Below are positions 812 through 13,302 of a stretch of 13,302 nt of DNA, piece by piece. Made by a program: the position numbers and the translations under genes. A model generated the notes under the pieces. That model searched no databases. It was not told the origin of the DNA and saw only the letters and a program-made list of their open reading frames with translations. This DNA is from an uncultured Eubacteriales bacterium (GTDB lineage Bacteria > Bacillota > Clostridia > Lachnospirales > Lachnospiraceae): positions 1 to 13,302 of the forward strand of contig OMSN01000041.1 of assembly GCA_900313765.1 (NCBI GenBank), in the 5' to 3' direction. Within the stretch, counting starts at the first letter, position 1. Each line of letters begins with the position of its first letter.

Positions 812-2818
812 ATGCAAATTGAACCGAAACTTTTTTCACAGACCCTTATACAGGGAGCAATGAAATATCCCGATAAACCCGCCCTCACATGCCGTGGCAA
901 TACAGTCACCTATGGACAGCTGAAACTGGCAGCGGACAACTGCAGTCTGAAACTGCTCAAGTGCGGCTTTAAGAAAGGGGACAAGGCAGTCCTGTGGGGA
1001 TTCAACGGAATTGAATGGATGGTTGCCTTTTTTGGTATCACCCAGATCGGAGGTGTCGCCTCCCTGATGAACTATGGCCTGAAGAGCCCGGATGTCAGTG
1101 CGCTCTCAAAGATGGTGCATGCATCCTGGGGCGTCATCGGAGGTAATACGATCAGTATCGTGGATCCGAATGCTGCCGCAAAGACGCTCATGGAAGGCGG
1201 TGTACCGGCAGATCATATCTTCCCGGCAACAGCCTTTGTCGGCATGGATGCGTTTGCACCGATTCCGGAAGAGGGAAGAAAAGCACTTACAGATGCGTAT
1301 GCTGCGGTAGATCCGAAAGACTCTCAGGTTATTATCTATACGACCGGAACGACCTCTATTCCGAAGGCTGTTCTCCAGTCTTCCTACTCGGTCCTGAGCA
1401 ACTGTGAAGGTGCCATGACCATGCTGGAAAAGAATATAGGTCCCACGCTGTGCCTTGCGCTTCCGACATTCCACAGCTATGGACTCATGGTCGTGAATGC
1501 GTATCTGGGCTTGGGACGCCATATCATCCTGACGCCTCTTCTGAAGCCGGATACACTGCTTACGTTGATCTATGATAATAAAGTTACGGATATGTGTTCG
1601 GTCGGAGCTATCTATGGCATGTTGACATCGATGCCGGAGTTCGAGCAGAAGCTCTCCGGACAGCTGCAGCTGTGCATTGTTGGCGGCGGATTTACGACAC
1701 CGGTAGAGATGATGCGCTTTGAGAAACTCCTGGGCGGCGGCAAACTGCTGTGCGGCTACGGACAGACGGAGTGCTCTCCGGTTATCACGGTTGAGACACC
1801 CGATGATCCGCTGGAGAAGAGGGCGGTCTCTGTCGGACGCAGCCTCCCGAACCATGAGGTACGCATCTGGAATGCCGATACCGGATTCGCGCCGCAGGGT
1901 GAAGTCGGTGAGATCGTTGTCAAGGGTCCCAGTCTTATGAACGGATACTACGGCCTTCCGCAGGATAAGCAGGCGATCGATCAGGATGGATGGCTGCATA
2001 CCGGTGATCTGGGCCGCTTTGATGAGGACGGCATGCTGCAGTTCTCGGGACGTATCAAGGATATCATCATCCGCAGTGGAGAAAACATTTCCCCGGTGGA
2101 GATCGAAAGAGTCCTTCTGGAGCAGCCGGAGGTGCGAGAAGCCAAGGTGCTCGGCGCTGCACACCCGATCTGGGGTGAGAGCGTGGAGTGCTGCCTGGTT
2201 CTTCGCAGCGGCTCACTGGACGAGGAGAGTTTCCGGGCAAGACTGAAACAGAAACTTGCATCGTTTAAGGTTCCGTCTCATTTCTTCCTCTATGACGCAT
2301 TCCCGCTCAATGAGAACGGAAAACTCAATCAGAGAGCCCTGCATGCGGATATGGTTCGTAAACTGTATGAGGCGAACCTGACGGCGGCGGTGAACGAGGG
2401 GTTAAGGATCCTTGATCTGAGGCTGAAAAACCGCAACTACACCATCGTGCCTTCCTGTTCCATGATCCAGCAGCTGGCAGACCAGATCGGATTCGATGAA
2501 GAGAAGGCCGGACAGATCCGCCTGAGCGTCGAGGAGATGCTGACAGACCGTATCAACAATGCCTTCGAAGAGAATGGCGAGATCCGTATGGAAGTTCTGC
2601 TCATGCCACAGTGGATGCGCTTGAGATTCACGGACACTGGAAGAAAGTATTCGCTCGAGGCAGAGGACGCTTCGATCAGTGCACGTATCATCCTCGCGAA
2701 TGTGGACGCCTATGCTTCCGGTGAAAATGAGAAGGGCGAGACGCAGTACAGCCTGGACTATCAGTATAACGATGATTTCAACGTTAAAGACTATCTGATG
2801 CGATATAAGGAGAAATGA
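812..2818 (+). CDS. Acyl-CoA/acyl-acid ligase (AMP-binding enzyme) fused to a C-terminal degenerate RsbW-like GHKL domain
   Basis: A 668-residue class I adenylate-forming enzyme, predicted to activate a carboxylic acid with ATP to an acyl-adenylate and pass it to CoA or a carrier thiol. Motifs appear in family order: the phosphate loop YTTGTTSIPKAV (176-187), GYGQTECSP (315-323), HTGDLGRFDEDG with Asp399, the hinge GRIKDIIIRSGENISPVEIE (413-432), and the catalytic lysine Lys504 in NENGKLNQ. The phosphate loop departs from the usual TSGTTGxPKG (Ser and Ala at two glycine positions). A normal enzyme ends near residue 515. Here about 145 more residues resemble an RsbW/HATPase_c_2 fold: LSVEEMLTDRINNAF (571-585) matches the N-box, but with Asp579 for the usual Asn; FTDTG (606-610) resembles the G1 box; the glycine-rich G2 box is replaced by ISARIILANVD. 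This domain is therefore probably not an active kinase and may bind the STAS protein encoded downstream. The substrate is unknown. The stop codon overlaps the next start, suggesting translational coupling. Confidence 0.88.
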   Translation: MQIEPKLFSQTLIQGAMKYPDKPALTCRGNTVTYGQLKLAADNCSLKLLKCGFKKGDKAVLWGFNGIEWMVAFFGITQIGGVASLMNYGLKSPDVSALSKMVHASWGVIGGNTISIVDPNAAAKTLMEGGVPADHIFPATAFVGMDAFAPIPEEGRKALTDAYAAVDPKDSQVIIYTTGTTSIPKAVLQSSYSVLSNCEGAMTMLEKNIGPTLCLALPTFHSYGLMVVNAYLGLGRHIILTPLLKPDTLLTLIYDNKVTDMCSVGAIYGMLTSMPEFEQKLSGQLQLCIVGGGFTTPVEMMRFEKLLGGGKLLCGYGQTECSPVITVETPDDPLEKRAVSVGRSLPNHEVRIWNADTGFAPQGEVGEIVVKGPSLMNGYYGLPQDKQAIDQDGWLHTGDLGRFDEDGMLQFSGRIKDIIIRSGENISPVEIERVLLEQPEVREAKVLGAAHPIWGESVECCLVLRSGSLDEESFRARLKQKLASFKVPSHFFLYDAFPLNENGKLNQRALHADMVRKLYEANLTAAVNEGLRILDLRLKNRNYTIVPSCSMIQQLADQIGFDEEKAGQIRLSVEEMLTDRINNAFEENGEIRMEVLLMPQWMRLRFTDTGRKYSLEAEDASISARIILANVDAYASGENEKGETQYSLDYQYNDDFNVKDYLMRYKEK

Positions 2819-3042
2819 TGAATTCACGATATTTCTCAGATGAAAAGGTAAATACAGGGCGTCAGCCGGAACTGGATCTTCTGAAGGCGCTCTGTGTAGT
2901 CGGTATGATCTTTGTCCATGTCTTTCTTGACCTGGGCGATCATGTCATGCCGGGTGTTGTAGATGACTATCTGACAGAGTTTTTCGGAGCTGCGACATTT
3001 ATGATCTGCATGGGTATCGGGATGCGCTATATGCACAGATGA
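2818..3042 (+). CDS. N-terminal fragment of a DUF1624/HGSNAT-type membrane acyltransferase (split gene)
   Basis: About 74 residues. The start at 2818 is preferred over 2815 because AAGGAG (2807-2812) is better spaced from it; the A of this ATG is the last base of the ligase stop, indicating tight coupling. A short polar N-terminus leads to QPELDLLKALCVVGMIFVHV, then a second hydrophobic stretch FFGAATFMICMGIGM. The pattern of a basic/polar 'R..ELDLLKAL' segment running into a first membrane helix with a His (His34) is typical of the first two helices of heparan-alpha-glucosaminide N-acetyltransferase-like (DUF1624) and acyltransferase_3 proteins. The frame stops at TGA 3040-3042 after MGIGMRYMHR, and the rest of the fold continues in another frame from 3039. 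Alone the fragment would lack most of the transmembrane core. It is either a broken gene, a sequencing or assembly artefact, or half of a two-polypeptide enzyme. Confidence 0.55.
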   Translation: MNSRYFSDEKVNTGRQPELDLLKALCVVGMIFVHVFLDLGDHVMPGVVDDYLTEFFGAATFMICMGIGMRYMHR

Positions 3043-3959
3043 GGAACTCTATTCCGAATCTGATTGCCTGGTGGATCACGGGAAAGCAGTTTTTCATTGC
3101 AAACAGTCTGCTGGTTCTGCAGTCGGATATTCTCACATTTGCGGGTCTTGCCTTCCTGCTGATGGCACTCCTGAAAATACTGCGGCTTAAGCCTGCTGCA
3201 ATCTTTGGAGTTGGTGTGCTCCTGAGCCTGGTGGCGCTGATCCTGTGGAACACGACTTCGTCTCCGAAGAATTATCTGGTAGCCCAGTTTGTGGGATTCT
3301 TCATCATTACGAAGGCAGAGGCTTATTTTCCGCTGCTGTGCTACTTCATCTTCGCAGCATTCGGATACTTTGTCGGGAGCTATTACCCGCGGATCCTGAA
3401 TAAGGAAGCACTTGCGAACCGGACCATGCTGATCTGTTTCCCGCTGGCTGCCCTCTATTATATTCCGCGATTTATCTTTGAGTTCCCGTTTATGCCGGAA
3501 CTGGGATCCGATATGCAGTACAACATGAAACCCACTCCGGACGCGATCGCGACATGTCTCTTCACGCTCGGCTTCCTGGCTCTGCTTGCCAGGTTCGTAC
3601 AGGCGATCGGCGGCAAACTGCCTGGGATCGTTACTCATTTTTCAAAGTATATCAACAATTATTACTGCCTGAGCTATATGTTCATTCTGCCGGTACAGAC
3701 GATCCTGATCGCCACTACAGGCGCTCTGTTCCCGGGGAAGGTAATCCCGATCCTGTATGGGTTCTTTGTGACAGCGGCCTGCTACGTACTGATCGAACTG
3801 AATGAAAGATACTGGCATATTCATTTTGCGACTCTGAAGGGAACGAAAGCACTGATATTCATCGCAGCAGTCTGGATCGCAACGATTGCGATCGTGGTAT
3901 ATGCATATCCGAGGATCGAGGTCTTTGCGAATATCTGGAATGACTATCTGCTGCCGTAA
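3039..3959 (+). CDS. C-terminal part of the split DUF1624/HGSNAT-type membrane acyltransferase
   Basis: 306 residues with about eight hydrophobic helices (for example DILTFAGLAFLLMALLKI, VLLSLVALILW, FPLLCYFIFAAFGYFVG, YCLSYMFILPVQTILIA and a final IAAVWIATIAIVVYAY). It continues the fold begun by the preceding fragment: the family normally reads from 'GMRY..R' through a basic loop and one more helix into '...SDILTFAGLAF'. The ATG at 3039 overlaps the fragment's stop (ATGA) and has no clear ribosome binding site, so it would depend on re-initiation. Members of this family take acyl groups from acyl-CoA on the cytosolic side and transfer them to sugars or glycans across the membrane, which fits the acyl-activating enzyme just upstream. 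About 20-30 residues expected between the two parts seem to be missing, which argues for a deletion with frameshift rather than a single-base error. The family call rests on pattern recognition; an acyltransferase_3 relative is the alternative. Confidence 0.6.
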   Translation: MRNSIPNLIAWWITGKQFFIANSLLVLQSDILTFAGLAFLLMALLKILRLKPAAIFGVGVLLSLVALILWNTTSSPKNYLVAQFVGFFIITKAEAYFPLLCYFIFAAFGYFVGSYYPRILNKEALANRTMLICFPLAALYYIPRFIFEFPFMPELGSDMQYNMKPTPDAIATCLFTLGFLALLARFVQAIGGKLPGIVTHFSKYINNYYCLSYMFILPVQTILIATTGALFPGKVIPILYGFFVTAACYVLIELNERYWHIHFATLKGTKALIFIAAVWIATIAIVVYAYPRIEVFANIWNDYLLP

Positions 3960-3987: not shown

Positions 3988-4287
3988 ATGACAATGAACA
4001 ACCAACTGGATGGAACCAGCCTGACAATCGCCATCGAGGGACGGATCGACACACAGACCGCACCGCAGCTGGAAGAGAATATCAAGAACTCCATTGATGG
4101 AGTGACCAGCCTGGTCCTTGATTTCACACAGGTTGGATATATCTCATCCGCAGGACTTCGTGCGGTTCTGGCGGCTCAGAACTGGATGGACGCTAAAGGA
4201 GGGTCCATGGTGATCCGCGGCGCGGCCAAGAACATTGTAGGCGTATTTAAAGTAACGGGATTTGACACTTTCCTCACACTGGAATGA
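3988..4287 (+). CDS. STAS-domain anti-sigma factor antagonist (RsbV/SpoIIAA-like)
   Basis: A 99-residue single STAS domain, the usual length for anti-anti-sigma factors. Visible signatures are the opening IAIEGRIDTQTAPQLEE (14-30), the central strand LVLDFTQVGYISSAGLRAVL (42-61) and the ending KVTGFDTFLTLE. Serines 53/54 in ISSAGLR sit at the loop and helix start where the regulatory phosphorylation site lies in RsbV/SpoIIAA. In known partner switches this residue is phosphorylated by an RsbW-type kinase and dephosphorylated by a PP2C (RsbU/SpoIIE) phosphatase. Both kinds of domain are encoded beside it: the phosphatase 4 bases downstream carries PP2C plus GHKL domains, and the acyl-ligase carries a GHKL-like tail. 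It lies in the cytoplasm and lacks any extra domain. No sigma factor is nearby, so its target may be an enzyme or membrane protein rather than a sigma factor. Confidence 0.93.
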   Translation: MTMNNQLDGTSLTIAIEGRIDTQTAPQLEENIKNSIDGVTSLVLDFTQVGYISSAGLRAVLAAQNWMDAKGGSMVIRGAAKNIVGVFKVTGFDTFLTLE

Positions 4288-4291
4288 TTGG

Positions 4292-6571
4292 ATGAGAACA
4301 AAAAAGCACTTAAGGAATGGATTTGGTCTGTTTCGTAATTTCGGCTGGAAGAAAAACCTGCTCGCTGTAGTAGTCAGCTTTTTTATCGTGCTGGCACTGG
4401 AATACTTCGTCCATACATTTGCCGATAACCAGATGCTGCGCCGGTTTGATCCGGGTATTGCGACAGTCCCACTGATCGGATTTCTTCTTGGAATCTGGGG
4501 TGTGATCGGAGTGCTGCTCGAGTCGATGGTTACATCTCTCCAGTTTTTCCTCAGTTTGGGGAAGTATGGACACAGTATCCACTGGCTCTATTTCGTCGGC
4601 ACATTTGTGTCGGTGTTTCTTCACTGCGCGCTGCCATCCATGCTCTGGTACGCATTCCCGGGCAAAGGGGAAGAAAGAGCCAGTTATCCCAGACTGGATA
4701 CTTCGGGGCATGTCGTCAAATACTATCTGATCATGGTGGTAAACTGTGCTATTTTTGTGCTGTTGAACAATATCTGGATTGTGGATTCATCCTTTCAGAT
4801 CGAATGGCTGGAAACCCTGGCCATGTTTACACAGTATCTGAATGTGACATTGATCATAGGGATGCCGCTGGTGATTGTGGTGTCCGTAATGCGGAACCGG
4901 ACCTTCACAATCAATGAGAGAATGGTGCTTACATTCCTTGCAGTATGTGTGATTGCATCTCTGCTTTGTGCCGGTATCCTGTACCGGACGATATGGCATC
5001 TGGAACCGGAAGTGATCCAGGAGTATAACTATCTCATGAGGCCGGAGGTTATGGATTGGGCAGAGGAGGATCTGGCCATAGTCAACCGGTACAATGATTT
5101 CTGGAACTGGTACTATATCGTGCTGGCGATCATGCTCAACGTTCTCCTGATTATTGAGATGATGCTTATGCGGCTGATCGAGAGCAAGGTGACGATGCCG
5201 ATCGTGCATCTGTCGGATGTGCTGGAAGAGTATAAAGCGCATGAGGAAGGTGACCTTGATCCGGAAACTGTTACAAAGAGATGCAAGCCTTACCGGTATG
5301 GGTACGGCGAAGTCAGCAGTCTGACACGCACCTGCGTGGAACTGGTCAATGAGATTGACAGTTATACGGAGAATCTGCGTGAGGTGACAGCGGAGAAGCA
5401 GAGGATCGGAACAGAGCTGGATGTTGCGTCAAAGATCCAGAGAGATATGCTTCCCCGTATCTTTCCGCCGTTTCCGGGGCGGCATGAGATGGACTTGTTT
5501 GCCAGCATGACACCTGCCAAGGAAGTCGGCGGCGACTTCTATGATTTTTATTTCATCGATCATGACCATCTGGTACTGACCATTGCAGACGTTTCAGGCA
5601 AAGGAGTCCCGGCTTCGCTGTTCATGGTGATCTCCAAGACTCTTCTGAAAAATTATGCGCAGGGGGGAGGTTCTCCGAAGGAGATCCTGACCTATGTGAA
5701 TCATCAGCTGTGCCAGAACAATGATTCTTTCATGTTCTGCACGGTCTGGCTGGGAATTCTGAATCTTAGGACAGGAAAACTGAAGGTGTCCAATGCCGGT
5801 CATGAATACCCGGCGATCCGGAGAAAGGATGGGAGCTTTGAACTGCTGGAAGATCAGCACAATGCTCCGCTTGGGGTCAGGGACGGCCTTCGGTACCGGC
5901 AGTATGAACTCACGCTGCAGCCGGGAGACTGTCTGTTTGAGTATACGGATGGCGTAACGGAAGCAACAGACTCTTCGTATGAGCTGTTTGGCGAAGAGCG
6001 GATGATACAGGTGCTGAATGAGAATCCTGCTGCGTCGCCGGAGAATCTCATTGAACGGATTCATGGATCCATCCAGACCTTTGTCGGAGAAGCACCGCAG
6101 TTTGATGATATCACCATGCTGTGCCTGGAATATCTTGGAACTGGAAATGATGAAGGTGAACAGGAAACCAGGCTTATAGTCCCGGCGAGGACAGACAGTC
6201 TCGATACGGTGATGGAGTTTGTGCAGAAGCAGCTGGAGGGTGCCGGCTGCCAGGAGGAGAATCTGTTCAACTTCTCCCTTGCGGCGGAGGAGATCTTTGT
6301 AAACATAGCGGAATATGCGTATGAAGGATCAGAAGGAGATGCAGAGATTACATTTACTTTTGATCAGGATGACCGTATTGCAGAGTTTATATTCACAGAC
6401 AGTGGTATGCCGTTTGATCCGACCTGCCGTCCGGCCCCGGATACGACACTGCAGCCGGGAGAGAGACAGATCGGAGGACTTGGCATTCATATTGTGAAGA
6501 AGACAATGGATCAGGTGCTCTACCGCTATGAAGGCGGTCAGAATCATCTGACGATCCGCAAGCAGATCTGA
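4292..6571 (+). CDS. SpoIIE-type membrane serine phosphatase (PP2C) with a C-terminal RsbW-like kinase domain
   Basis: 759 residues from ATG 4292, which lies 4 bases after the STAS stop. A TTG at 4262 would extend it by 10 residues inside the STAS gene and has no ribosome binding site. The N-terminal half has about seven hydrophobic segments (roughly 22-42, 58-78, 99-119, 143-163, 181-200, 212-232, 273-295), with a probable extracytoplasmic loop at 233-272. A HAMP/coiled-coil-like linker follows (296-375, TMPIVHLSDVLEEY). The PP2C domain covers about 376-615 and has the metal-binding acids in GGDFYD (413-418), ADVSGKG (432-438), YTDGVTEA (551-558) and FDDIT (604-608). A complete HATPase_c_2/RsbW domain follows (about 625-759): N-box AAEEIFVNIAEYAY with Asn671, G1 DSGMPFDP (703-710), G2 GGLGIHI (728-734). 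One protein thus appears able both to dephosphorylate and to phosphorylate the STAS protein, in response to a membrane signal. SypE-like response regulators also combine opposing kinase and phosphatase activities, but without this membrane part. Confidence 0.92.
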   Translation: MRTKKHLRNGFGLFRNFGWKKNLLAVVVSFFIVLALEYFVHTFADNQMLRRFDPGIATVPLIGFLLGIWGVIGVLLESMVTSLQFFLSLGKYGHSIHWLYFVGTFVSVFLHCALPSMLWYAFPGKGEERASYPRLDTSGHVVKYYLIMVVNCAIFVLLNNIWIVDSSFQIEWLETLAMFTQYLNVTLIIGMPLVIVVSVMRNRTFTINERMVLTFLAVCVIASLLCAGILYRTIWHLEPEVIQEYNYLMRPEVMDWAEEDLAIVNRYNDFWNWYYIVLAIMLNVLLIIEMMLMRLIESKVTMPIVHLSDVLEEYKAHEEGDLDPETVTKRCKPYRYGYGEVSSLTRTCVELVNEIDSYTENLREVTAEKQRIGTELDVASKIQRDMLPRIFPPFPGRHEMDLFASMTPAKEVGGDFYDFYFIDHDHLVLTIADVSGKGVPASLFMVISKTLLKNYAQGGGSPKEILTYVNHQLCQNNDSFMFCTVWLGILNLRTGKLKVSNAGHEYPAIRRKDGSFELLEDQHNAPLGVRDGLRYRQYELTLQPGDCLFEYTDGVTEATDSSYELFGEERMIQVLNENPAASPENLIERIHGSIQTFVGEAPQFDDITMLCLEYLGTGNDEGEQETRLIVPARTDSLDTVMEFVQKQLEGAGCQEENLFNFSLAAEEIFVNIAEYAYEGSEGDAEITFTFDQDDRIAEFIFTDSGMPFDPTCRPAPDTTLQPGERQIGGLGIHIVKKTMDQVLYRYEGGQNHLTIRKQI

Positions 6572-6618: not shown

Positions 6619-8235
6619 ATGCTGAAAGTATTGATTGCCGATGATGAACAATTGATCTGCAGCATGATCAATAAGATGATTGACTGGGAAGGACGAGGCC
6701 TTGCACTCGCCGGCATGGCGAACAACGGGCTGGATGTCCTTACCCAGATCAGGGAACTTCATCCCGATATCGTCATAACCGACATCAGGATGCCAGGCCT
6801 GACCGGCCTGGAACTGATTGAGGAAGCGATGAAGATCGATGCATCACTGGATTTTGTCATCATCAGTGGCTATAAGAACTTTGATTATGCCCATCAGGCA
6901 CTGACGATGGGCGTGCGTCATTACCTGCTTAAACCTATTGACCGTACAGAACTCATGGAGACGCTGGACCGCATTATCGAGGAGCGGAGAAAGACAGCTG
7001 CAAGCCGCAGGGAAAATGAAGCCTTTGCCAAGCAGCAGGAGTCCTACCGTCAGGAAGCGAGACAGCATTTCCTTAATTCCATTCTGCAGGACAGCGGGAT
7101 GGAAACCGCGGAAGGTACAGTGCAGAATTCCGGCAGTGAAGAAAAGCGCCTTGCATTCCATAAAGGAGGGTACAGGGCGTTTTTTGTTAAGCTTGATTCG
7201 ACAGAGGAAGGGGAAGTGGAACCCGGACTTCTTGAGATCCTTCGCACTCTTGTGGAGAAGGAAGAGACAGATCACTGGCACTGTGAACATATTACGACAC
7301 TTGTGAAGAGCGGCATCATCTCCGTGATCAATGCACCTGCCGGCGCAAAGCAGGAGCATCCCAAAGATATGGAAACCCTCTTCACGAAATGCCGTAGGGA
7401 AACGGACAAGTTTACAGGCTACAGTGTGACCATCGGGGTTGGCGCAGAGAAATACCGGATTCAGGACACACGCATCACCATCGATGAAGCTACCATCGCA
7501 GTGAAGTACCGAATTCGTGCCGGGCTTGCCAGAGTGATCCATTACGAGGACCTGAAGCGTGTGGATGACGATATCACCAGTGTGTTCGGGCAGGATCACA
7601 GAAACGGCAACAGACGCGCTGTAGAAGCACTTGACGCTGCAGCAGTGCAGGATGATGTACAGATCCTCTATGAACAGCTCTGCAGGCAGCCCGATTATTC
7701 CCCTCTGAAACTGTTTCGGCTGATCAAAACATTCACAGAGATTATCCGGGAAACATGGGAAGAGAATGCTGTCGAGGGCCAGATCATCTCAGAGTTTGAA
7801 TATGCTGTGGAGGAACTCATGGACCGCAGCACGACTGAAGCACGCCTGATCCAGCGGTTCCAGGACGCAGTGGAGTATTCTTTCCGCAAAGTGCTGGAGA
7901 CGCGCAGGCAGAGCGGGTCTGCATCAATCCGGGAAGCAAAGCAGTATCTGGCAGAGCACTACAGGGAGAACCCGTCACTGGAAGATGTTGCGGACCGGGT
8001 GGGCATGAGTCCGACTTATCTCAGCGCCATGTTTAAGAAAGAAGTTGGTATCGGATTCAGTGATTACCTGATCCAGCTTCGCTGTGAAGAAGCCAAGAGA
8101 CTGATCCGCACCACACAGGAGCCGCTTGCATCGGTTGCGGAAGCAGTCGGATATCAGGATGCGAAGTACTTCAGCAGGATCTTTCGCAAGACTGTAGGAA
8201 TTAAGCCCAGCGAATACAGGAAACTGTATCAGTAA
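6619..8235 (+). CDS. YesN-type response regulator with AraC-family DNA-binding domain
   Basis: 538 residues, the usual size for YesN-type regulators. The receiver domain (1-120) has the acidic pair DDE (8-10), the phospho-acceptor Asp55 in IVITDIRMPG and Lys105 in YLLKPID. The middle region (about 125-430) includes a stretch (SVTIGVGAEKYRIQD, then ITIDEATIAVKYRIRAG, then VIHYEDLKRV) resembling the degenerate GGDEF-like domain found in many regulators of this class; it lacks a GGDEF signature. The C-terminal AraC domain (about 440-538) has two helix-turn-helix motifs: LEDVADRVGMSPTYLSAMFK and LASVAEAVGYQDAKYFSRIF, ending KPSEYRKLY. It is predicted to be phosphorylated by the histidine kinase encoded 12 bases downstream and to control sugar transport genes such as the binding-protein operon from 10771. 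The ribosome binding site (GGAGA, 6608-6612) is moderate. The 47-base gap to the phosphatase gene shows no terminator, so co-transcription with the upstream operon is possible. Confidence 0.93.
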   Translation: MLKVLIADDEQLICSMINKMIDWEGRGLALAGMANNGLDVLTQIRELHPDIVITDIRMPGLTGLELIEEAMKIDASLDFVIISGYKNFDYAHQALTMGVRHYLLKPIDRTELMETLDRIIEERRKTAASRRENEAFAKQQESYRQEARQHFLNSILQDSGMETAEGTVQNSGSEEKRLAFHKGGYRAFFVKLDSTEEGEVEPGLLEILRTLVEKEETDHWHCEHITTLVKSGIISVINAPAGAKQEHPKDMETLFTKCRRETDKFTGYSVTIGVGAEKYRIQDTRITIDEATIAVKYRIRAGLARVIHYEDLKRVDDDITSVFGQDHRNGNRRAVEALDAAAVQDDVQILYEQLCRQPDYSPLKLFRLIKTFTEIIRETWEENAVEGQIISEFEYAVEELMDRSTTEARLIQRFQDAVEYSFRKVLETRRQSGSASIREAKQYLAEHYRENPSLEDVADRVGMSPTYLSAMFKKEVGIGFSDYLIQLRCEEAKRLIRTTQEPLASVAEAVGYQDAKYFSRIFRKTVGIKPSEYRKLYQ

Positions 8236-8247
8236 GAAGGAGCGAAC

Positions 8248-9180
8248 ATGGTTTATGTTCTTGCAGCGGCTCTGATCCTTGTAATTGCCGCATTGCTGTC
8301 GAGCCTGTTCTATATTCAGAAGACACAGAAGATCCTGCACCTGATGGATCCACACAGGACAGGGAAATGTTCTCTTGTTTCACTGAATAAACTGGATCTC
8401 CTGTATCGGGAACTGGAATCTGTGTACGGCGCTGCCCAGAAGCTGGACGATGAGACACGGGACCGTGAACTCATGGAAACGCGCATGAAATTTGCCCAGC
8501 TTCAGAATCAGATCAATCCCCATTTTCTTTACAATACACTTGAGAATATTCGTGCCAGGGCGATTCTCGATGACAATGAAGTCATTGCCGATATGACCGA
8601 GGCACTGTCCCGTTTCTTCCGCTACAACATCAGTAAACGTGCGGATATTGTGAAACTCTCGGAAGAACTGGACAATATCCGCACCTATATGCATATCCAG
8701 CAGTATCGTTTCTCCAACAAGTTTGACTTTCAGGTCTTTATCCATGATGAACGCAGCGATGTGATGAATGCCCGGATTCCCAAGATGACGCTGCAGCCGA
8801 TCGTCGAAAATGCAATCTTCCATGGAATGGAAAATAAGCTGGGCAAGGGACATATCGAGATTCACATCGAATATAACGAACGGAATATCTTTATCATCGT
8901 AGAAGATGATGGAGTGGGAATGAATGAAAAGGATCTTGCCGCACTGCGCGAAAAACTTTCCGCAAGAGCAGACGGCCACTGGGACACCGGCCATGAGAGC
9001 AGCGGAATCGCAATGCGCAATATCAATAACCGCCTGAAACTCCTGTATGGGGAAGACTGTGGGATCACCGTCTCGAGTACGGAGGGAGTCGGAACTGAAG
9101 TCGAGCTGACGCTTCCAAGACACTTCCAGGAGGATGAGAACACCGGTACAGATCAGACGAATGCGGGGGGTGCAGCGTGA
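8248..9180 (+). CDS. YesM/LytS-type sensor histidine kinase lacking an extracellular sensor domain
   Basis: 310 residues. AAGGAG (8237-8242) is well placed before ATG 8248. A single N-terminal membrane helix (about 3-22) is followed almost directly by a coiled linker (50-85) and the His_kinase domain: QLQNQINPHFLYNTLENIRA with phospho-acceptor His92. The HATPase domain shows QPIVENAIFHG with Asn188 (N-box), VEDDGVGM (218-225, G1) and SSGIAMRNINNRL (251-263, G2). The usual YesM kinase is nearly twice as long, with two membrane helices flanking a large extracellular sensor and a HAMP domain; both are absent here. The signal must therefore arrive through a partner, and the degenerate ABC protein whose GTG start overlaps this gene's stop is the obvious candidate. 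The kinase core itself looks intact. It pairs with the response regulator immediately upstream. Confidence 0.92.
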   Translation: MVYVLAAALILVIAALLSSLFYIQKTQKILHLMDPHRTGKCSLVSLNKLDLLYRELESVYGAAQKLDDETRDRELMETRMKFAQLQNQINPHFLYNTLENIRARAILDDNEVIADMTEALSRFFRYNISKRADIVKLSEELDNIRTYMHIQQYRFSNKFDFQVFIHDERSDVMNARIPKMTLQPIVENAIFHGMENKLGKGHIEIHIEYNERNIFIIVEDDGVGMNEKDLAALREKLSARADGHWDTGHESSGIAMRNINNRLKLLYGEDCGITVSSTEGVGTEVELTLPRHFQEDENTGTDQTNAGGAA

Positions 9181-10646
9181 AGCAGGAATATCTCTCGATC
9201 CGAAACCTGATCGCAGGAGAGGAAGGAACACAGCTGGACCGGTTTCATCTTCGGATATCGCAGGGTGAGTTTGTCGAACTGATGGGAATCGAGGGTTCCG
9301 GCAAGGCACAGCTGACAGGAGTTCTCACGGGAAACGTGCGGATACGCAGCGGCAGGGTATGCATTGCCGGACACACTTACGGACCCGGGGATATCCTGCG
9401 CAGCACGAATATTCTCCATATCGGAAGTACACCGTCGCTGGCAGGGAGCCTTACGGTGGCTGAGAATGTGGCCCTGCTTACAAGAAGCAGAAAGCTGCGT
9501 ATTCTGGTCCACCGGCGGGAGATTATTGACCGTGTCAATTTCCTGCTGTCGGAATTCGGCCTTGCGATCCGAGCCGAGACACGGGCGGATGAACTGGGAG
9601 AGGGAGAGAAGCGAGCGGTGGAACTTCTGCGCGCCGTGGAAAATGATATTCCATTCATCCTGATCAGTGATATCTTTCAGACAACCGGTCAGGCGGATCT
9701 GCAGATGATTGAATCCCTGCTTCGGAAGATGAAGGCACGCCATTATACCATCCTGGTGCTTGGAAGCGGTTTTCCGCGTTTTATCGATCTGGATGACCGT
9801 ATCGAGGTGATCCGGAGAGGACGCCACGTGCGGACATTCTACCATAATAACTATGATCGGGAAGCATATGTAAGGTGGAGTCTGGGAATACAGGATCCTG
9901 CACTGGCGCGTGCGGAGGCTACCGGGCATGCTGGGATCTCTTCCTTCCACGGTACTGCTTTACCGGCATCCGGGAAGCGGAACTCTTCCGGTGTGCAGCG
10001 GCTGACAATCCGTGATCTGGAACTGCCCGGAATCCATAACATCCATCTGGAAGCAGAAGCCGGAGAGATCATCGGCCTCTATGACATGAATAATCGTGGA
10101 AACCACGAGCTTCTGCAATGTCTGACCGGAGAGAACAGGCCTCTTGGCGGAGAGATGTTTCTGGACGGGGTTCCCTATGCGCCGGATTCTCCTGACGATA
10201 TCAGCAGAAAGGGCGTTGACTTCCTGCCGCATAACATTCTCAGCTGCTCTGTAGTAGAGGGGATGAGCTACAGTGAGAATCTGGAACTGTCCACCATGAG
10301 AAAACACAGTCTGCTTGGCATTTTTGTCAAGAAGCGGGTGCAGGATTATCTTGCAGATGAATATGGGAAAGAGCTGGAAGCGGAAGATCCCGGACATATA
10401 AAAGGAAGGGATCTGAACATCAATGATCGGATGCGGGTTGCGCTTCAGAGGATCCTGCTGCATCATCCGAGACTGCTTCTTATCGAAGATGTATTGAGCG
10501 ATATGAATATCGAACTGCTGCGGATCGAGACAGAGTACTTCAGCAGACTGACGGAATCAGGATGTACGATTCTTATCTCCTCACCGAACCTGACCGTGCT
10601 CCGGCAGGTGACAGACCGTATCATAGTTCTTGGAACAAACACATAA
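9177..10646 (+). CDS. Degenerate tandem ABC ATPase (RbsA/MglA-like fold), probable non-catalytic regulator
   Basis: 489 residues from GTG 9177, overlapping the kinase stop (GTGA), with a purine-rich GGGGGG tract just upstream as ribosome binding site. The size and two-repeat layout match sugar ABC ATPases of the RbsA/MglA kind, but the motifs are eroded. Repeat 1: Walker A GIEGSGKA (37-44) has Ala for Ser/Thr after the Lys; the Q-loop region (81-97, HIGSTPS...LTVAEN) lacks its Gln; the signature reads LGEGEKRA (140-147) instead of LSGGQ; Walker B is ILISDIF with no catalytic Glu; no H-loop His is seen (VLGSGFP). Repeat 2: GLYDMNNRGNHEL (300-312) replaces the Walker A; LNINDRMRVAL (413-423) replaces LSGGNQQ; LLLIEDVLSDMN (433-444) replaces LDEPTRGID; ISSPNL replaces the SS-x-E switch. 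ATP hydrolysis is unlikely. Its place in the two-component operon, with an intact ATPase encoded downstream, suggests a scaffold or transporter-state sensor that talks to the sensorless kinase. An alternative is a decaying paralogue, but the frame is fully open. Confidence 0.85.
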   Translation: MKQEYLSIRNLIAGEEGTQLDRFHLRISQGEFVELMGIEGSGKAQLTGVLTGNVRIRSGRVCIAGHTYGPGDILRSTNILHIGSTPSLAGSLTVAENVALLTRSRKLRILVHRREIIDRVNFLLSEFGLAIRAETRADELGEGEKRAVELLRAVENDIPFILISDIFQTTGQADLQMIESLLRKMKARHYTILVLGSGFPRFIDLDDRIEVIRRGRHVRTFYHNNYDREAYVRWSLGIQDPALARAEATGHAGISSFHGTALPASGKRNSSGVQRLTIRDLELPGIHNIHLEAEAGEIIGLYDMNNRGNHELLQCLTGENRPLGGEMFLDGVPYAPDSPDDISRKGVDFLPHNILSCSVVEGMSYSENLELSTMRKHSLLGIFVKKRVQDYLADEYGKELEAEDPGHIKGRDLNINDRMRVALQRILLHHPRLLLIEDVLSDMNIELLRIETEYFSRLTESGCTILISSPNLTVLRQVTDRIIVLGTNT

Positions 10647-10650
10647 GATT

Positions 10651-10697
10651 GTCCACCTTTTCGCAAACAAGCCTCATTGTGAAAGGTGGACTTTTTT
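10651..10697 (+). terminator. Strong Rho-independent terminator after the two-component/pseudo-ABC operon
   Basis: GTCCACCTTT (10651-10660) pairs perfectly with AAAGGTGGAC (10682-10691), with further partial pairing inside the loop (CGCAA with TTGTG). It is followed at once by six Ts (10692-10697). It lies 4 bases after the stop codon and separates the regulatory genes from the sugar transport operon. Confidence 0.9.
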
Positions 10698-10770
10698 ATT
10701 ATCATAAACCCAGCAAAGGAACACGTTGTGACGGTATGCAACGGTTAAAGTGAAAGGAGATACAAGAGGA

Positions 10771-11778
10771 ATGAAGAAGCAGATCGTAAGTGCAGTACTT
10801 ACAGCAGCGATGACCATGAGCCTTATGGCAGGCACCGCAGTGTCCGTAAACGCAGAAGAGGCAGGCGCAAAGCGTGAAGGCATCAAGATCGGTATGACGG
10901 TTCCGTCAGTCAGCAATGATTTCATGGTAGCACTTACCGGAATGCTGCAGGGTTATCTGACAGAACAGGGCTACGAAGTACAGTTTGACTCCGCAGACGG
11001 AGATGTCACCAAGCAGCAGAACCAGATCGAGAATGATATCCAGATGGGATGTGACGCACTGGTCGTATGGCCGGTAAACGGTGAAGGCCTCTCCAACGTA
11101 GTCACTCAGGCTGTGGATCAGGGCATTCAGGTTCTCGCATTTGCCAATGCGATCCCGGGCGCATCTGCTAACCAGGTTGCAGCGGATGATAAGGAAATGG
11201 GTACAGCACAGGCAGAACTTGCCAGCGACTGGATCGATAAGGCATTCCCGGATGCAGGAGACGGTGAAGTGAAGGTCTTCGTTATCACATCTTCCAATAC
11301 ACCGCAGGCAGTTGACAGAAGTGAAGGCATGCTGACCATCGCTGACATGAACAGCAAGGTCAATATGATCACATCGGATGTTGACTGGGACAGCCCCAAT
11401 GCAACCAGCTCCCTTGTTGAGAATACTCTGATGACAGATCCGGACATCAAGGTTATCATGACTCCGGGTGGAACTCCTGGTGTTATGGCGAACAACTTTG
11501 TCATGAGCGCAAACTCCAATGTTGAGGATAAAGCACACTTTGCAATCTTCACCGTTGATGAGACTGAAGAGATCGATGCAGCGATCGCTGCTTCTGCCAA
11601 TGACGAAGCAGTCCTTCGCGGAACGATTTCCATGGGTACTCTGGATGATACCATCCATGACTTCGCCAAGGCGATCCAGCCGTACCTCGATGGCGGCGAC
11701 ATGCAGCAGGTCGACGGAACAGCATTCAAAGTAACCCCTGAGTCTCTGGCAGGCGCTGCTGAGACCGAAGCAGAGTAA
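10771..11778 (+). CDS. Sugar ABC transporter substrate-binding protein (type I periplasmic-binding fold)
   Basis: 335 residues from ATG 10771. An in-frame GTG at 10750 would add 7 residues, but the ribosome binding site AAGGAGA (10754-10760) lies inside that extension, so ATG is chosen. A clear signal peptide MKKQIVSAVLTAAMTMSLMA...SVNA is predicted to be cut near residue 28. The mature protein has the Peripla_BP_4 (RbsB-like) layout: IKIGMTVPSVSNDFMVALTG near the start, NQIENDIQMGCDALVVWPVN (84-103), a hinge around VLAFANAIPG, and VIMTPGGTPGVM in the second lobe. It should bind a sugar or related small molecule outside the cell for the ABC transporter whose ATPase follows. There is no lipobox cysteine at the signal peptide end (the only nearby Cys is residue 94), unusual for a Gram-positive binding protein. 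The C-terminus is acidic (AAETEAE). The hairpin after it may keep its mRNA more abundant than the downstream genes. Confidence 0.92.
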   Translation: MKKQIVSAVLTAAMTMSLMAGTAVSVNAEEAGAKREGIKIGMTVPSVSNDFMVALTGMLQGYLTEQGYEVQFDSADGDVTKQQNQIENDIQMGCDALVVWPVNGEGLSNVVTQAVDQGIQVLAFANAIPGASANQVAADDKEMGTAQAELASDWIDKAFPDAGDGEVKVFVITSSNTPQAVDRSEGMLTIADMNSKVNMITSDVDWDSPNATSSLVENTLMTDPDIKVIMTPGGTPGVMANNFVMSANSNVEDKAHFAIFTVDETEEIDAAIAASANDEAVLRGTISMGTLDDTIHDFAKAIQPYLDGGDMQQVDGTAFKVTPESLAGAAETEAE

Positions 11779-11804
11779 GAAGAAAAACAGCTGAAGATCA
11801 TAAG

Positions 11805-11836
11805 GCTCCTGTGGGGTATCACCACGGGAGCTTTTT
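11805..11836 (+). terminator. Intergenic hairpin terminator/attenuator between binding protein and ABC ATPase
   Basis: GCTCCTGTGG (11805-11814) pairs with CCACGGGAGC (11822-11831), a 10-bp stem with one G-T pair and a 7-base loop, followed by five Ts. The T-run leads directly into the AAAAGGAG ribosome binding site of the ATPase gene. As the transport genes should be one operon, it probably acts as a partial terminator or 3' stabiliser that raises binding-protein levels over the transporter core. Confidence 0.8.
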
Positions 11837-11844
11837 AAAAGGAG
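11837..11844 (+). promoter_or_regulatory. Ribosome binding site of the sugar ABC ATPase gene
   Basis: AAAAGGAG lies 6 bases before ATG 11851 and immediately after the terminator's T-run. An in-frame ATG at 11845 directly abuts the GGAG and is too close to use, so 11851 is the likely start. Confidence 0.75.
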
Positions 11845-11850
11845 ATGCGT

Positions 11851-13302
11851 ATGGAACAGAAAGTCGTACTGAAGATGCGCGGCATCTCAAAGTTCTACCC
11901 GGGTGTTGTCGCACTCGATAAGGTAGATCTCGATGTGCTGGAGGGTGAGGTGCACGCCCTTCTCGGCGAGAACGGCGCGGGCAAGTCCACACTGATCAAG
12001 GTTCTGTCCGGAGCTGTGAAGAACGACGAGGGCACGATTGAAATAAACGGAAAGACCTTCGAACATATGACGCCTCTCGAATCCAGAGAGAATGGGGTAG
12101 AGGTCATTTACCAGGAATATAATCTGATTCCCGGCCTGACAGTCGCGGAGAATGTATGCCTGGGATCCCAGATGCATGGGATTGTCGATATGCGCCAGCA
12201 GGTCGCGAAGACGAAAGAGATCTTTGATCGCTACAATATCCATCTGAATCCGGTTGCGCTGGTAGGTTCTCTTCCTCCCGCAAAACAGCAGCTGGTGGAG
12301 ATTACGAAAGCCATCGCCAAGGATCCTAAGATCATTGTCATGGATGAACCTACGGCACAGCTGACGATGGCAGAGGTTGAGAATCTGTACAAGATTATTG
12401 AGACACTGAAGAGCAAGGGGACGTCCATCATCTTCATCTCACACCGCATGGAGGAACTGTTTGCCGTTACGGACCGTGTCACCATCATGCGTGACGGGCA
12501 GTATATCACGACGGTCAACACATCCGAGACGGACCGCGACAGCCTGATCACACTGATGGTCGGACGTGAGCTGAAGTCAGGCGGCCCGCGCAGCTGTTCT
12601 GCTACGGATGAAGTCGTCCTCAAGGTCAGCAATGTCAGCGGCTATGTGAATGAGGATTGTTCCTTCGAATTGAAGAAGGGTGAGATCCTCGGCGTGGCAG
12701 GACTGGTCGGCGCCGGCAGAACAGAACTGATGCGTGTGATCTTCGGAGCAGATAAGAAACTCTCAGGTACCGTGGAAATCAACGGAAAACCTGTTACGAT
12801 CCGCCAGCCTGAGGATGCCATCAAGGCAGGCATCGGACTCATACCGGAAGACAGGAAGATGCAGGGATGCTTCCTCAACCAGACGATTGAATGGAATATC
12901 AGCATGGGCAATATCCGTTCGCTGACCACAGGACGTCTGGTAGATGAGAAGAAGATTGCCAAAGCGGCCGAGCAGTACAGGGAGACGTTGAACATCAAGA
13001 CTCCTTCCGTACAGCAGCTTGTCCGGAACCTTTCCGGCGGCAATCAGCAGAAGGTCGTTCTTGCCAAGGTGCTGCTCGCGGATACGGACATTATTATCTT
13101 TGACGAGCCGACACGCGGCATCGATGTAGGCGCAAGAGCAGAGATCTATGCGCTTATGGACAGTCTTGCGAACTCCGGCAAGTCTCTGATCATGGTCAGT
13201 TCCGACATGGAAGAGCTGCTGAATATGTCAGATCGTATTATCGTACTGGCAGAGGGCAGGATCACAGGTGAACTGATGAGACCGGAATTCTCTCAGGAGA
13301 AG
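11851..13302 (+). CDS. Sugar ABC transporter ATP-binding protein (RbsA/MglA-like, two ABC domains; 3' end outside window)
   Basis: 484 codons are visible with no stop before the window edge. The family is usually about 500 residues, so only a short tail is missing. Repeat 1: Walker A GENGAGKST (39-47), Q-loop VIYQEYNLIPGLTVAEN, a relaxed signature LPPAKQQLVEI (141-151), Walker B IIVMDEPTAQLT with Glu166, and His198 in ISHRMEEL. Repeat 2: Walker A variant GLVGAGRTE (284-292), with Arg replacing Lys as is normal for CUT2 sugar ATPases; GLIPEDRKMQGC; signature LSGGNQQKV (394-402); Walker B IIIFDEPTRGIDVGA (414-428); switch VSSDMEEL. Repeat 1 therefore appears catalytically complete, and repeat 2 shows the specialised form expected of the family. 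It powers import of the sugar captured by the binding protein encoded upstream; a permease gene is expected just after the window. The contrast with the eroded paralogue at 9177-10646 is striking. The particular sugar cannot be told from sequence. Confidence 0.95.
   Translation, partial: MEQKVVLKMRGISKFYPGVVALDKVDLDVLEGEVHALLGENGAGKSTLIKVLSGAVKNDEGTIEINGKTFEHMTPLESRENGVEVIYQEYNLIPGLTVAENVCLGSQMHGIVDMRQQVAKTKEIFDRYNIHLNPVALVGSLPPAKQQLVEITKAIAKDPKIIVMDEPTAQLTMAEVENLYKIIETLKSKGTSIIFISHRMEELFAVTDRVTIMRDGQYITTVNTSETDRDSLITLMVGRELKSGGPRSCSATDEVVLKVSNVSGYVNEDCSFELKKGEILGVAGLVGAGRTELMRVIFGADKKLSGTVEINGKPVTIRQPEDAIKAGIGLIPEDRKMQGCFLNQTIEWNISMGNIRSLTTGRLVDEKKIAKAAEQYRETLNIKTPSVQQLVRNLSGGNQQKVVLAKVLLADTDIIIFDEPTRGIDVGARAEIYALMDSLANSGKSLIMVSSDMEELLNMSDRIIVLAEGRITGELMRPEFSQEK

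Follow-up and report, generated by a model that had tools for sequence, protein, structure and literature searches.

A degenerate RsbW-like domain on a predicted acyl-activating ligase suggests a sigma-free partner switch with an enzyme as its output

We analysed a 13,302-nt stretch of DNA, hereafter the window, from an uncultured Eubacteriales bacterium of the Lachnospiraceae (assembly GCA_900313765.1, contig OMSN01000041.1, forward strand). It encodes an acyl-activating ligase that we regard, with moderate confidence, as the output of a partner switch lacking a sigma factor, and the C-terminal domain of this ligase would be a dead RsbW serving as a regulatory docking module. The switch probably serves acylation of a surface or exported product. 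The ligase is favoured as the output because of its anatomy, its conservation, its linkage to switch genes and the existence of STAS-ligase fusions in another lineage, taken together. A circuit best known for the control of gene expression is suggested here to control an enzyme directly.

The ligase is encoded by an ATG-start open reading frame of 668 aa. A protein search returned 75 sequences with the same tail, one of which (P0002) is the window's own, thus leaving 74 homologues. The features of the gene are as follows.

812..2818, + strand: ANL (acyl-activating) ligase with a C-terminal pseudo-RsbW domain
857..1951, + strand: AMP-binding domain PF00501, residues 16-380 (219.4 bits, above cut-off; P-loop and TGD conserved)
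2099..2323, + strand: AMP-binding_C domain PF13193, residues 430-504, ending at catalytic Lys504 (50.7 bits, above cut-off)
2402..2764, + strand: RsbW/SpoIIAB-like fold, residues 531-651, about 120 residues (by fold comparison)
2498..2557, + strand: degenerate N-box helix, residues 563-582 (Asp579 in place of Asn; Arg570, Glu574, Glu575 and Arg580 conserved)
2633..2641, + strand: G1 box DTG, residues 608-610 (Asp608 and Gly610 in 75/75 rows)
2669..2683, + strand: ASISA at the position of the G2 glycines, residues 620-624 (Ser623 and Ala624 in 75/75 rows)

Both ligase domains scored above their curated cut-offs and the catalytic Lys of the C-terminal domain is present, which places the product among the ANL enzymes and bears out the claim of the first-pass annotation that the core is complete through Lys504. 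In the alignment of the window with its 74 homologues, Lys504, Glu320, Thr397-Gly398-Asp399, Arg414 and Lys416 are each found in 75/75 rows, and Lys185 in 74/75, the remaining row having a gap. Precomputed domains placed PF00501 on 75/75 of the tail-bearing proteins. Judged from its sequence, the product is predicted to be an ATP-dependent ligase that activates a carboxylate. NCBIfam comparison grouped the core sequence with fatty-acyl and aryl-CoA ligases, and the protein fell below every NCBIfam cut-off among the matches listed (25 of 107).

A helix (residues 507-529) extends out of AMP-binding_C to the tail domain. Fold comparison decided the class of the tail and was specific to RsbW/SpoIIAB, the RsbW subclass of the Bergerat fold, whereas a PDB sequence search with the tail gave matches at chance level only (best E 0.25). 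The HATPase_c_2 model matched residues 549-616 with 24.0 bits against a cut-off of 27.4 when the protein was taken alone, and with 28.3 bits, called above cut-off, in the genome search "with its neighbours in the frame". The N-box Asn of the RsbW family serves Mg-ATP, and the G2 glycines belong to the ATP lid. The tail keeps neither: position 579 is Asp in 64, Glu in 10 and Asn in 1 of the 75 rows, and at the G2 glycines Ala620 occupies 70/75, Ser621 71/75 and Ser623 all 75. Glu or Asp also stands at the N-box Asn position in the distant tail fragments examined. P0026 is the sole row with Asn at 579, yet it too is without G2 glycines, and no convincing kinase-competent ligase tail was found among the 75 rows and the fragments examined. 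Nevertheless, in 61 of the 72 homologues of full length, the tail (524-650) shows stronger conservation than the core (1-510), mean identity being 76.6% for the tail vs 72.6% for the core. A GHKL/RsbW-like tail with Asp579 in its N-box and no G2 glycines is what the first-pass annotation had read from the letters, leaving it to structure comparison whether the tail folds as RsbW/SpoIIAB; it folds so, an unrelated fold was not seen in the fold comparison, and the domain of about 120 residues retains the DxG loop (Asp608 and Gly610).

Stand-alone tails were sought with the tail profile, which gave 39 matches, 21 of which were examined. Most of these 21 are the ends of tailed ligases on short contigs; P0080, P0106, P0114 and P0115 look chimeric, and P0093 looks frameshifted. 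Two matches whose contigs measure about 8 kb, P0086 (153 aa) and P0091 (133 aa), could be stand-alone forms of the tail.

After the tailed ligase, the operon encodes a membrane acyltransferase, a STAS protein and a SpoIIE phosphatase that ends in an intact kinase domain. The STAS gene therefore lies two genes downstream of the ligase (3988-4287), just where it had first been placed.

2819..3959, + strand: membrane acyltransferase (HGSNAT_cat / Acyl_transf_3; tblastn with homologue L019 and Pfam of three homologues)
3988..4287, + strand: STAS protein (RsbV/SpoIIAA-like), 99 aa (PF01740, 52.3 bits; TIGR00377 above cut-off)
4292..6571, + strand: SpoIIE-type membrane phosphatase with a fused RsbW-like kinase domain whose motifs are intact (domains by Pfam)
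5561..6130, + strand: SpoIIE PP2C phosphatase domain (PF07228, 177.2 bits)
6179..6562, + strand: kinase domain of the HATPase_c_2 type, its N-box Asn, DxG and GGLG all preserved (PF13581, 80.1 bits)

The start of the SpoIIE gene was set by eye at the in-frame ATG 4292; the ORF list begins this frame at TTG 4262. These genes supply what a partner switch comprises, namely a STAS protein with a phospho-serine motif, and a SpoIIE/PP2C phosphatase and an RsbW-type kinase with intact motifs. The phospho-site equivalent, Ser54, lies within the STAS motif YISSAGLR, which is invariant in 11/11 operon STAS proteins, and the kinase domain retains the N-box Asn, DxG and GGLG or GGMG in 9/9 aligned copies. 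Because the motifs are intact in this copy and degenerate yet conserved in the other, the operon kinase looks active and the ligase tail dead but constrained. No sigma factor gene was found among the operon genes. The frame of the acyltransferase, a gene that the first-pass annotation did not identify, is broken near 3039: residues 1-74 and 97-402 of the L019 homologue match in two frames, about 67 bases short, and Pfam recognises nothing in the 306-aa piece encoded by the window itself. The break is either a real lesion or an assembly error of a draft genome, and since the acyltransferase is disrupted there, the window's copy of the operon may be impaired.

The remainder of the window holds unrelated neighbours: upstream, the end of a Big_2/fn3-like surface protein (1-603), and downstream (6619-13302), genes for a response regulator and a histidine kinase (Pfam) and for a sugar-type ABC transporter (by eye). 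Elsewhere in the same genome (L149, contig C135) we observed a second partner-switch set of SpoIIE, STAS and RsbW-like genes; that contig also carries an ECF-like sigma gene, assigned by eye, and a pair of ABC exporters, of which one has a C39 peptidase.

The genome scan identified 16 window-type loci besides the window. The acyltransferase is next to the ligase in 15/15 loci with a whole ligase gene (window and L006-L019); the contigs of L015 and L016 end within it, and the window's copy is disrupted. In L020, which has no STAS gene, truncated ligase and acyltransferase genes run into one another, leaving an acyltransferase remnant, and the L021 contig ends inside the ligase. A STAS gene lies downstream in 11 of the 13 testable loci (window, L006-L010, L012-L014, L018 and L019) and is absent from L017 and L020; L011, L015, L016 and L021 end too early for this test. 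SpoIIE comes next in 10/10 loci whose contig continues past STAS (that of L014 ends after it), with the fused kinase domain in all 9 loci reaching it, the L012 contig ending before this domain. By arithmetic from the 3 STAS matches in the window's 2.2-Mb genome, a STAS gene would fall within 5 kb of any one gene by chance in about 1.4% of cases. Co-occurrence of tailed ligases with STAS/SpoIIE genes, on which the earlier proposal had been made to depend, was thus observed in these 11 of 13 loci. A stricter rule, by which STAS stands beside every tailed ligase, was rejected on account of L017, L020 and two distant loci described below (G534 and G410).

In L017, the tailed ligase and acyltransferase are present but no STAS or SpoIIE gene follows within the next 7.8 kb. 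That genome has no full-length match to the operon SpoIIE (the best by E-value shows 46% over residues 295-645), and at L017 the operon appears to have been partly eroded. Elsewhere, the same genome contains a STAS gene, assigned by eye, and behind it a gene (L139:5678-7264) for a 529-aa protein of STAS, APH phosphotransferase and HATPase_c_2 domains. A COesterase-type esterase gene lies upstream in 8/17 loci, two of the 8 being partial, and L017:1694-2212 is a remnant of this upstream esterase gene (E 3e-6). Assembly UBA4348 carries two different tailed-ligase copies, L008 and L015, about 80% and 73% identical to the window.

We further examined the face of the tail that corresponds to the STAS-binding surface of RsbW. 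According to the part of PMC7340262 available, RsbW residues Arg23, Asp42, Lys44/Ser48, Glu49 and Tyr118 bond RsbV residues Asp23, Arg84/Arg87, Tyr53, Ser56 and Ile91, with Glu49 touching the phospho-acceptor serine of RsbV. The residues were mapped through an HHalign match (probability 97.1, ungapped over the stretch), with Tyr118 placed by hand. Glu49 corresponds to tail Glu575, retained in 74/75 rows; Lys44 and Ser48 correspond to Arg570 and Glu574, each in 75/75 rows; Asp42 corresponds to Gln568, variable among the 75 rows; and Tyr118 corresponds, by the match made by hand, to Arg625 (Lys or Arg in 71/75). Arg23 is replaced by Cys549 (71/75 rows), a loss that is non-discriminating because the operon's own kinase domain also lacks an equivalent of Arg23. 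On the partner's side, STAS Asp21, Tyr51 and Ser54, matched by eye to RsbV Asp23, Tyr53 and Ser56, are found in 11/11 operon STAS proteins.

The following circuit can be proposed. From its intact domains and what is known of their families, the membrane SpoIIE protein would sense a signal; its PP2C domain would dephosphorylate STAS Ser54 and its own RsbW-like domain would phosphorylate it. The ligase tail would bind unphosphorylated STAS through its N-box face, in the way RsbW binds RsbV. With neither the Asn that binds Mg nor the G2 glycines that bind phosphate, the tail should be unable to release STAS by phosphorylating it, so that the complex would persist until the kinase domain recaptures STAS. 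Docking may alter the activity or the position of the ligase and hence how many activated acyl groups reach the neighbouring membrane acyltransferase, an enzyme that would then acylate a surface or exported product. By analogy with SiaC acting on SiaD, we favour a version in which docking would switch the ligase on rather than off.

A second connection between STAS domains and acyl ligases came from the fifth best core match (31%), a STAS domain (residues 10-102) fused to an acyl ligase. Such fusions occurred in 4/79 genomes of one genus, two being identical, one 90% and one 44% (3 distinct sequences), and Y[IV]SSAGLRE is retained in 3/3 aligned fusions. An Acyl_transf_3-type gene lies on the strand of the STAS-ligase in 3/3 loci examined: that of L146, which encodes a membrane acyltransferase, directly follows the STAS-ligase and overlaps it by 8 bases; that of L137 is found about 5 kb upstream; and L147 carries an 87% homologue of the L137 gene. 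No RsbW-like kinase was detected in the 19-20 kb around the three STAS-ligase loci with a profile that does find the operon kinases. In the tree, tail ligases and STAS ligases form two separate groups, 99/98 each, and partner-switch domains therefore joined acyl ligases at least twice, through opposite halves of the switch. The STAS-ligases were also considered as sisters of the tailed ligases, an arrangement unsupported by the tree, in which the STAS rows join plain and barrel-fused ligases (94/99; this node is not starred, long branches were noted and the barrel was assigned by eye).

The tail was found in 3/299 family genomes sampled, counting the window's own; a fourth match (G160) is an RsbW-like protein. 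Searching the order gave 13 matched genomes of 392, with intact tailed ligases in 4, own included. The others comprise a deleted remnant (G431), a match with stops (G347), proteins RsbW-like by sequence (G314 and G252), MATE fusions (G450 and G557), a histidine kinase by Pfam (G428) and unannotated ORFs equal in length to that of G428 (G332 and G399). At phylum level, 16/398 genomes matched, own included, with no further tailed ligase by ORF length; one ORF of 638 aa is a SpoIIE-kinase. The ligase core, searched in 344 genomes of the order, matched in 10 genomes at E <= 1e-60, and 4/4 core matches with E < 1e-90 carry the tail (at most 4 candidates per genome scored). The 190-aa ORF of G431 (L036:1492-2064), from another family, has a ligase core running straight into the last tail residues, and is either an internally deleted tailed ligase or the product of a chimeric contig.

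The distant tailed ligases have other neighbours. Those of G534 and G566 (about 50% identity) are each followed by a MATE transporter gene. The G534 MATE is fused to HATPase_c_2 (43.5 bits), with the N-box Asn and G2 present and G1 reading DNC; the G566 contig ends inside MatE and is too short for the STAS test. The G410 tail has diverged far and gave no match to HATPase models even at E = 1; the gene beside this ligase (431 aa) showed transferase and condensation matches below threshold only. STAS is absent from the contigs of G534 and G410 (0/2 testable). The earlier proposal that the ligase is the target of the switch was accordingly strengthened by the RsbW/SpoIIAB fold, the linkage to STAS/SpoIIE in 11/13 loci and the STAS-ligase fusions, and weakened by the STAS-less G534 and G410.

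Searching with the C-terminal region of MATE-HATPase proteins gave 3 homologues. MATE proteins with a C-terminal HATPase_c_2 (RsbW-like) domain were seen at L056:4215-5966, L061:1183-2934, L140:7701-9479 and L141:7584-9449, with MatE assigned by Pfam in the first three and by eye in L141; that of L061 stands behind STAS and RsbW genes, and those of L140 and L141 have no nearby STAS. The G566 genome also contains L150:2-11385, where a gene ending in HATPase_c_2 and cut by the contig start is followed by STAS, a 2433-aa nonribosomal peptide synthetase and a 1035-aa module.

The main rival to STAS docking accounts for much of the same evidence. The tail may be a dimerisation module whose beta1/alpha1 face contacts the intact RsbW-like domain of SpoIIE or MATE; pairing would bring the ligase to the membrane or block the kinase, and the target of STAS would be the heterodimer rather than the tail by itself. 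RsbW forms dimers by way of alpha1 and beta1 (PMC7340262, available part), and M. smegmatis RsbW3, which did not phosphorylate RsfB, binds RsbW1, a heterodimer being assumed by the authors (PMC7693655, available part). Such pairing fits the MATE-linked lineage better, given the tailed ligase of G534 followed by a MATE-HATPase_c_2 gene with no STAS on the contig, and that of G566 followed by MatE cut by the contig end. However, few parts of the tail are as conserved as the N-box face, which contacts STAS in RsbW and which dimerisation alone would not require; moreover, no HATPase-bearing neighbour was found in the stretches examined around L017 and G410. We consider heterodimer formation rather unlikely.

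Two further explanations appear improbable to us, to a similar degree. The tail might sense ATP, ADP or AMP and tune the ligase to the energy state, with STAS and SpoIIE serving another target, and retention of the adenine-binding DxG loop (Asp608 and Gly610 in 75/75) agrees with such a role. Against this stand the loss of the N-box Asn in 74/75 rows and of the G2 glycines, as well as the further divergence of the G410 tail, and a sensor would leave both the STAS/SpoIIE linkage and the STAS-ligase fusions unexplained. Alternatively, the tail could be purely structural, contributing to ligase stability or oligomerisation since an old fusion, and the linkage would reflect shared regulation of expression. 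Its constancy in the subfamily, where 4/4 core matches with E < 1e-90 carry it (at most 4 candidates per genome scored), would suit this view, but a structural role does not call for conservation above the catalytic core, for a fixed pseudo-active-site motif or for STAS fused to another ligase lineage.

Beyond STAS docking on the window's ligase, a broader reading can be offered tentatively: in gut and rumen Lachnospiraceae and relatives, sigma-free partner switches may be hard-wired by fusion onto enzymes and transporters, with the window operon as the clearest case. The fusions concerned would be dead RsbW with acyl ligases, STAS with the other ligase lineage, RsbW-like domains with MATE, and STAS plus RsbW with a phosphotransferase. 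If this were true, it would amount to broad post-translational control of acylation and export chemistry. If the STAS protein indeed switches the acyl-activating enzyme, gut bacteria would have transcription-free control of acylation, and dead RsbW or fused STAS domains on enzymes would provide a fold-based rule for finding other outputs.

Among the matches listed in the open-access literature (titles and abstract starts), no acyl ligase controlled by STAS or RsbW was reported. We also know of no RsbW fold on the target of the STAS protein MlaB. The available part of a review describes partner switches as best known for regulating sigma factors and the targets of several STAS proteins as still unknown (PMC8256260); in the window, the likely target is visible in sequence because it carries a presumed docking domain. 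A non-sigma output as such is not new, since SiaABCD and CapK/CapS are precedents. In SiaABCD of Pseudomonas aeruginosa, the phosphatase SiaA, the kinase SiaB and the phospho-protein SiaC control the enzyme SiaD by direct binding (PMC8457831 and PMC7647112, available parts), and the window is proposed to resemble it in having a phosphatase, a kinase and a small phospho-protein that acts directly on an enzyme. SiaD, however, is a diguanylate cyclase bound by way of a stalk rather than a pseudo-RsbW domain, whereas the window's output candidate is an ANL ligase, its small protein matches STAS families above cut-off and the SiaA model scored 64.6 bits against a cut-off of 700. CapK/CapS (PMC13373217, abstract) likewise combines an RsbW-like kinase, a STAS-like substrate and a non-sigma output; there the output is a DNA-binding repressor or a VapC-like nuclease, and the abstract mentions no enzyme-fused pseudokinase.

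Single components also have counterparts. RsbW3 of Mycobacterium smegmatis is an RsbW homologue that did not phosphorylate RsfB in vitro and acts by protein binding (PMC7693655, available part); it is stand-alone and acts on an anti-sigma factor, whereas the window's copy is fused to an enzyme. MlaB is a STAS protein within a non-sigma target complex, MlaFEDB, whose target is an ABC transporter (PMC7367683, available part) and not, as the window's candidate, a ligase. The window's core resembles fatty-acyl-CoA ligases of the PRK06187, FadD13 and MenE class (NF004837, 322 bits; FadD13 3r44 by sequence), but the enzyme stays under the NCBIfam cut-off (476) and bears the extra tail. Compared with the RsbW/SpoIIAB-RsbV/SpoIIAA switches of SigB and SigF (PMC7340262, available part), the operon is without a sigma factor and has two RsbW-like copies, an intact one on the phosphatase and an apparently dead one on the enzyme, and its output would be catalysis, not transcription.
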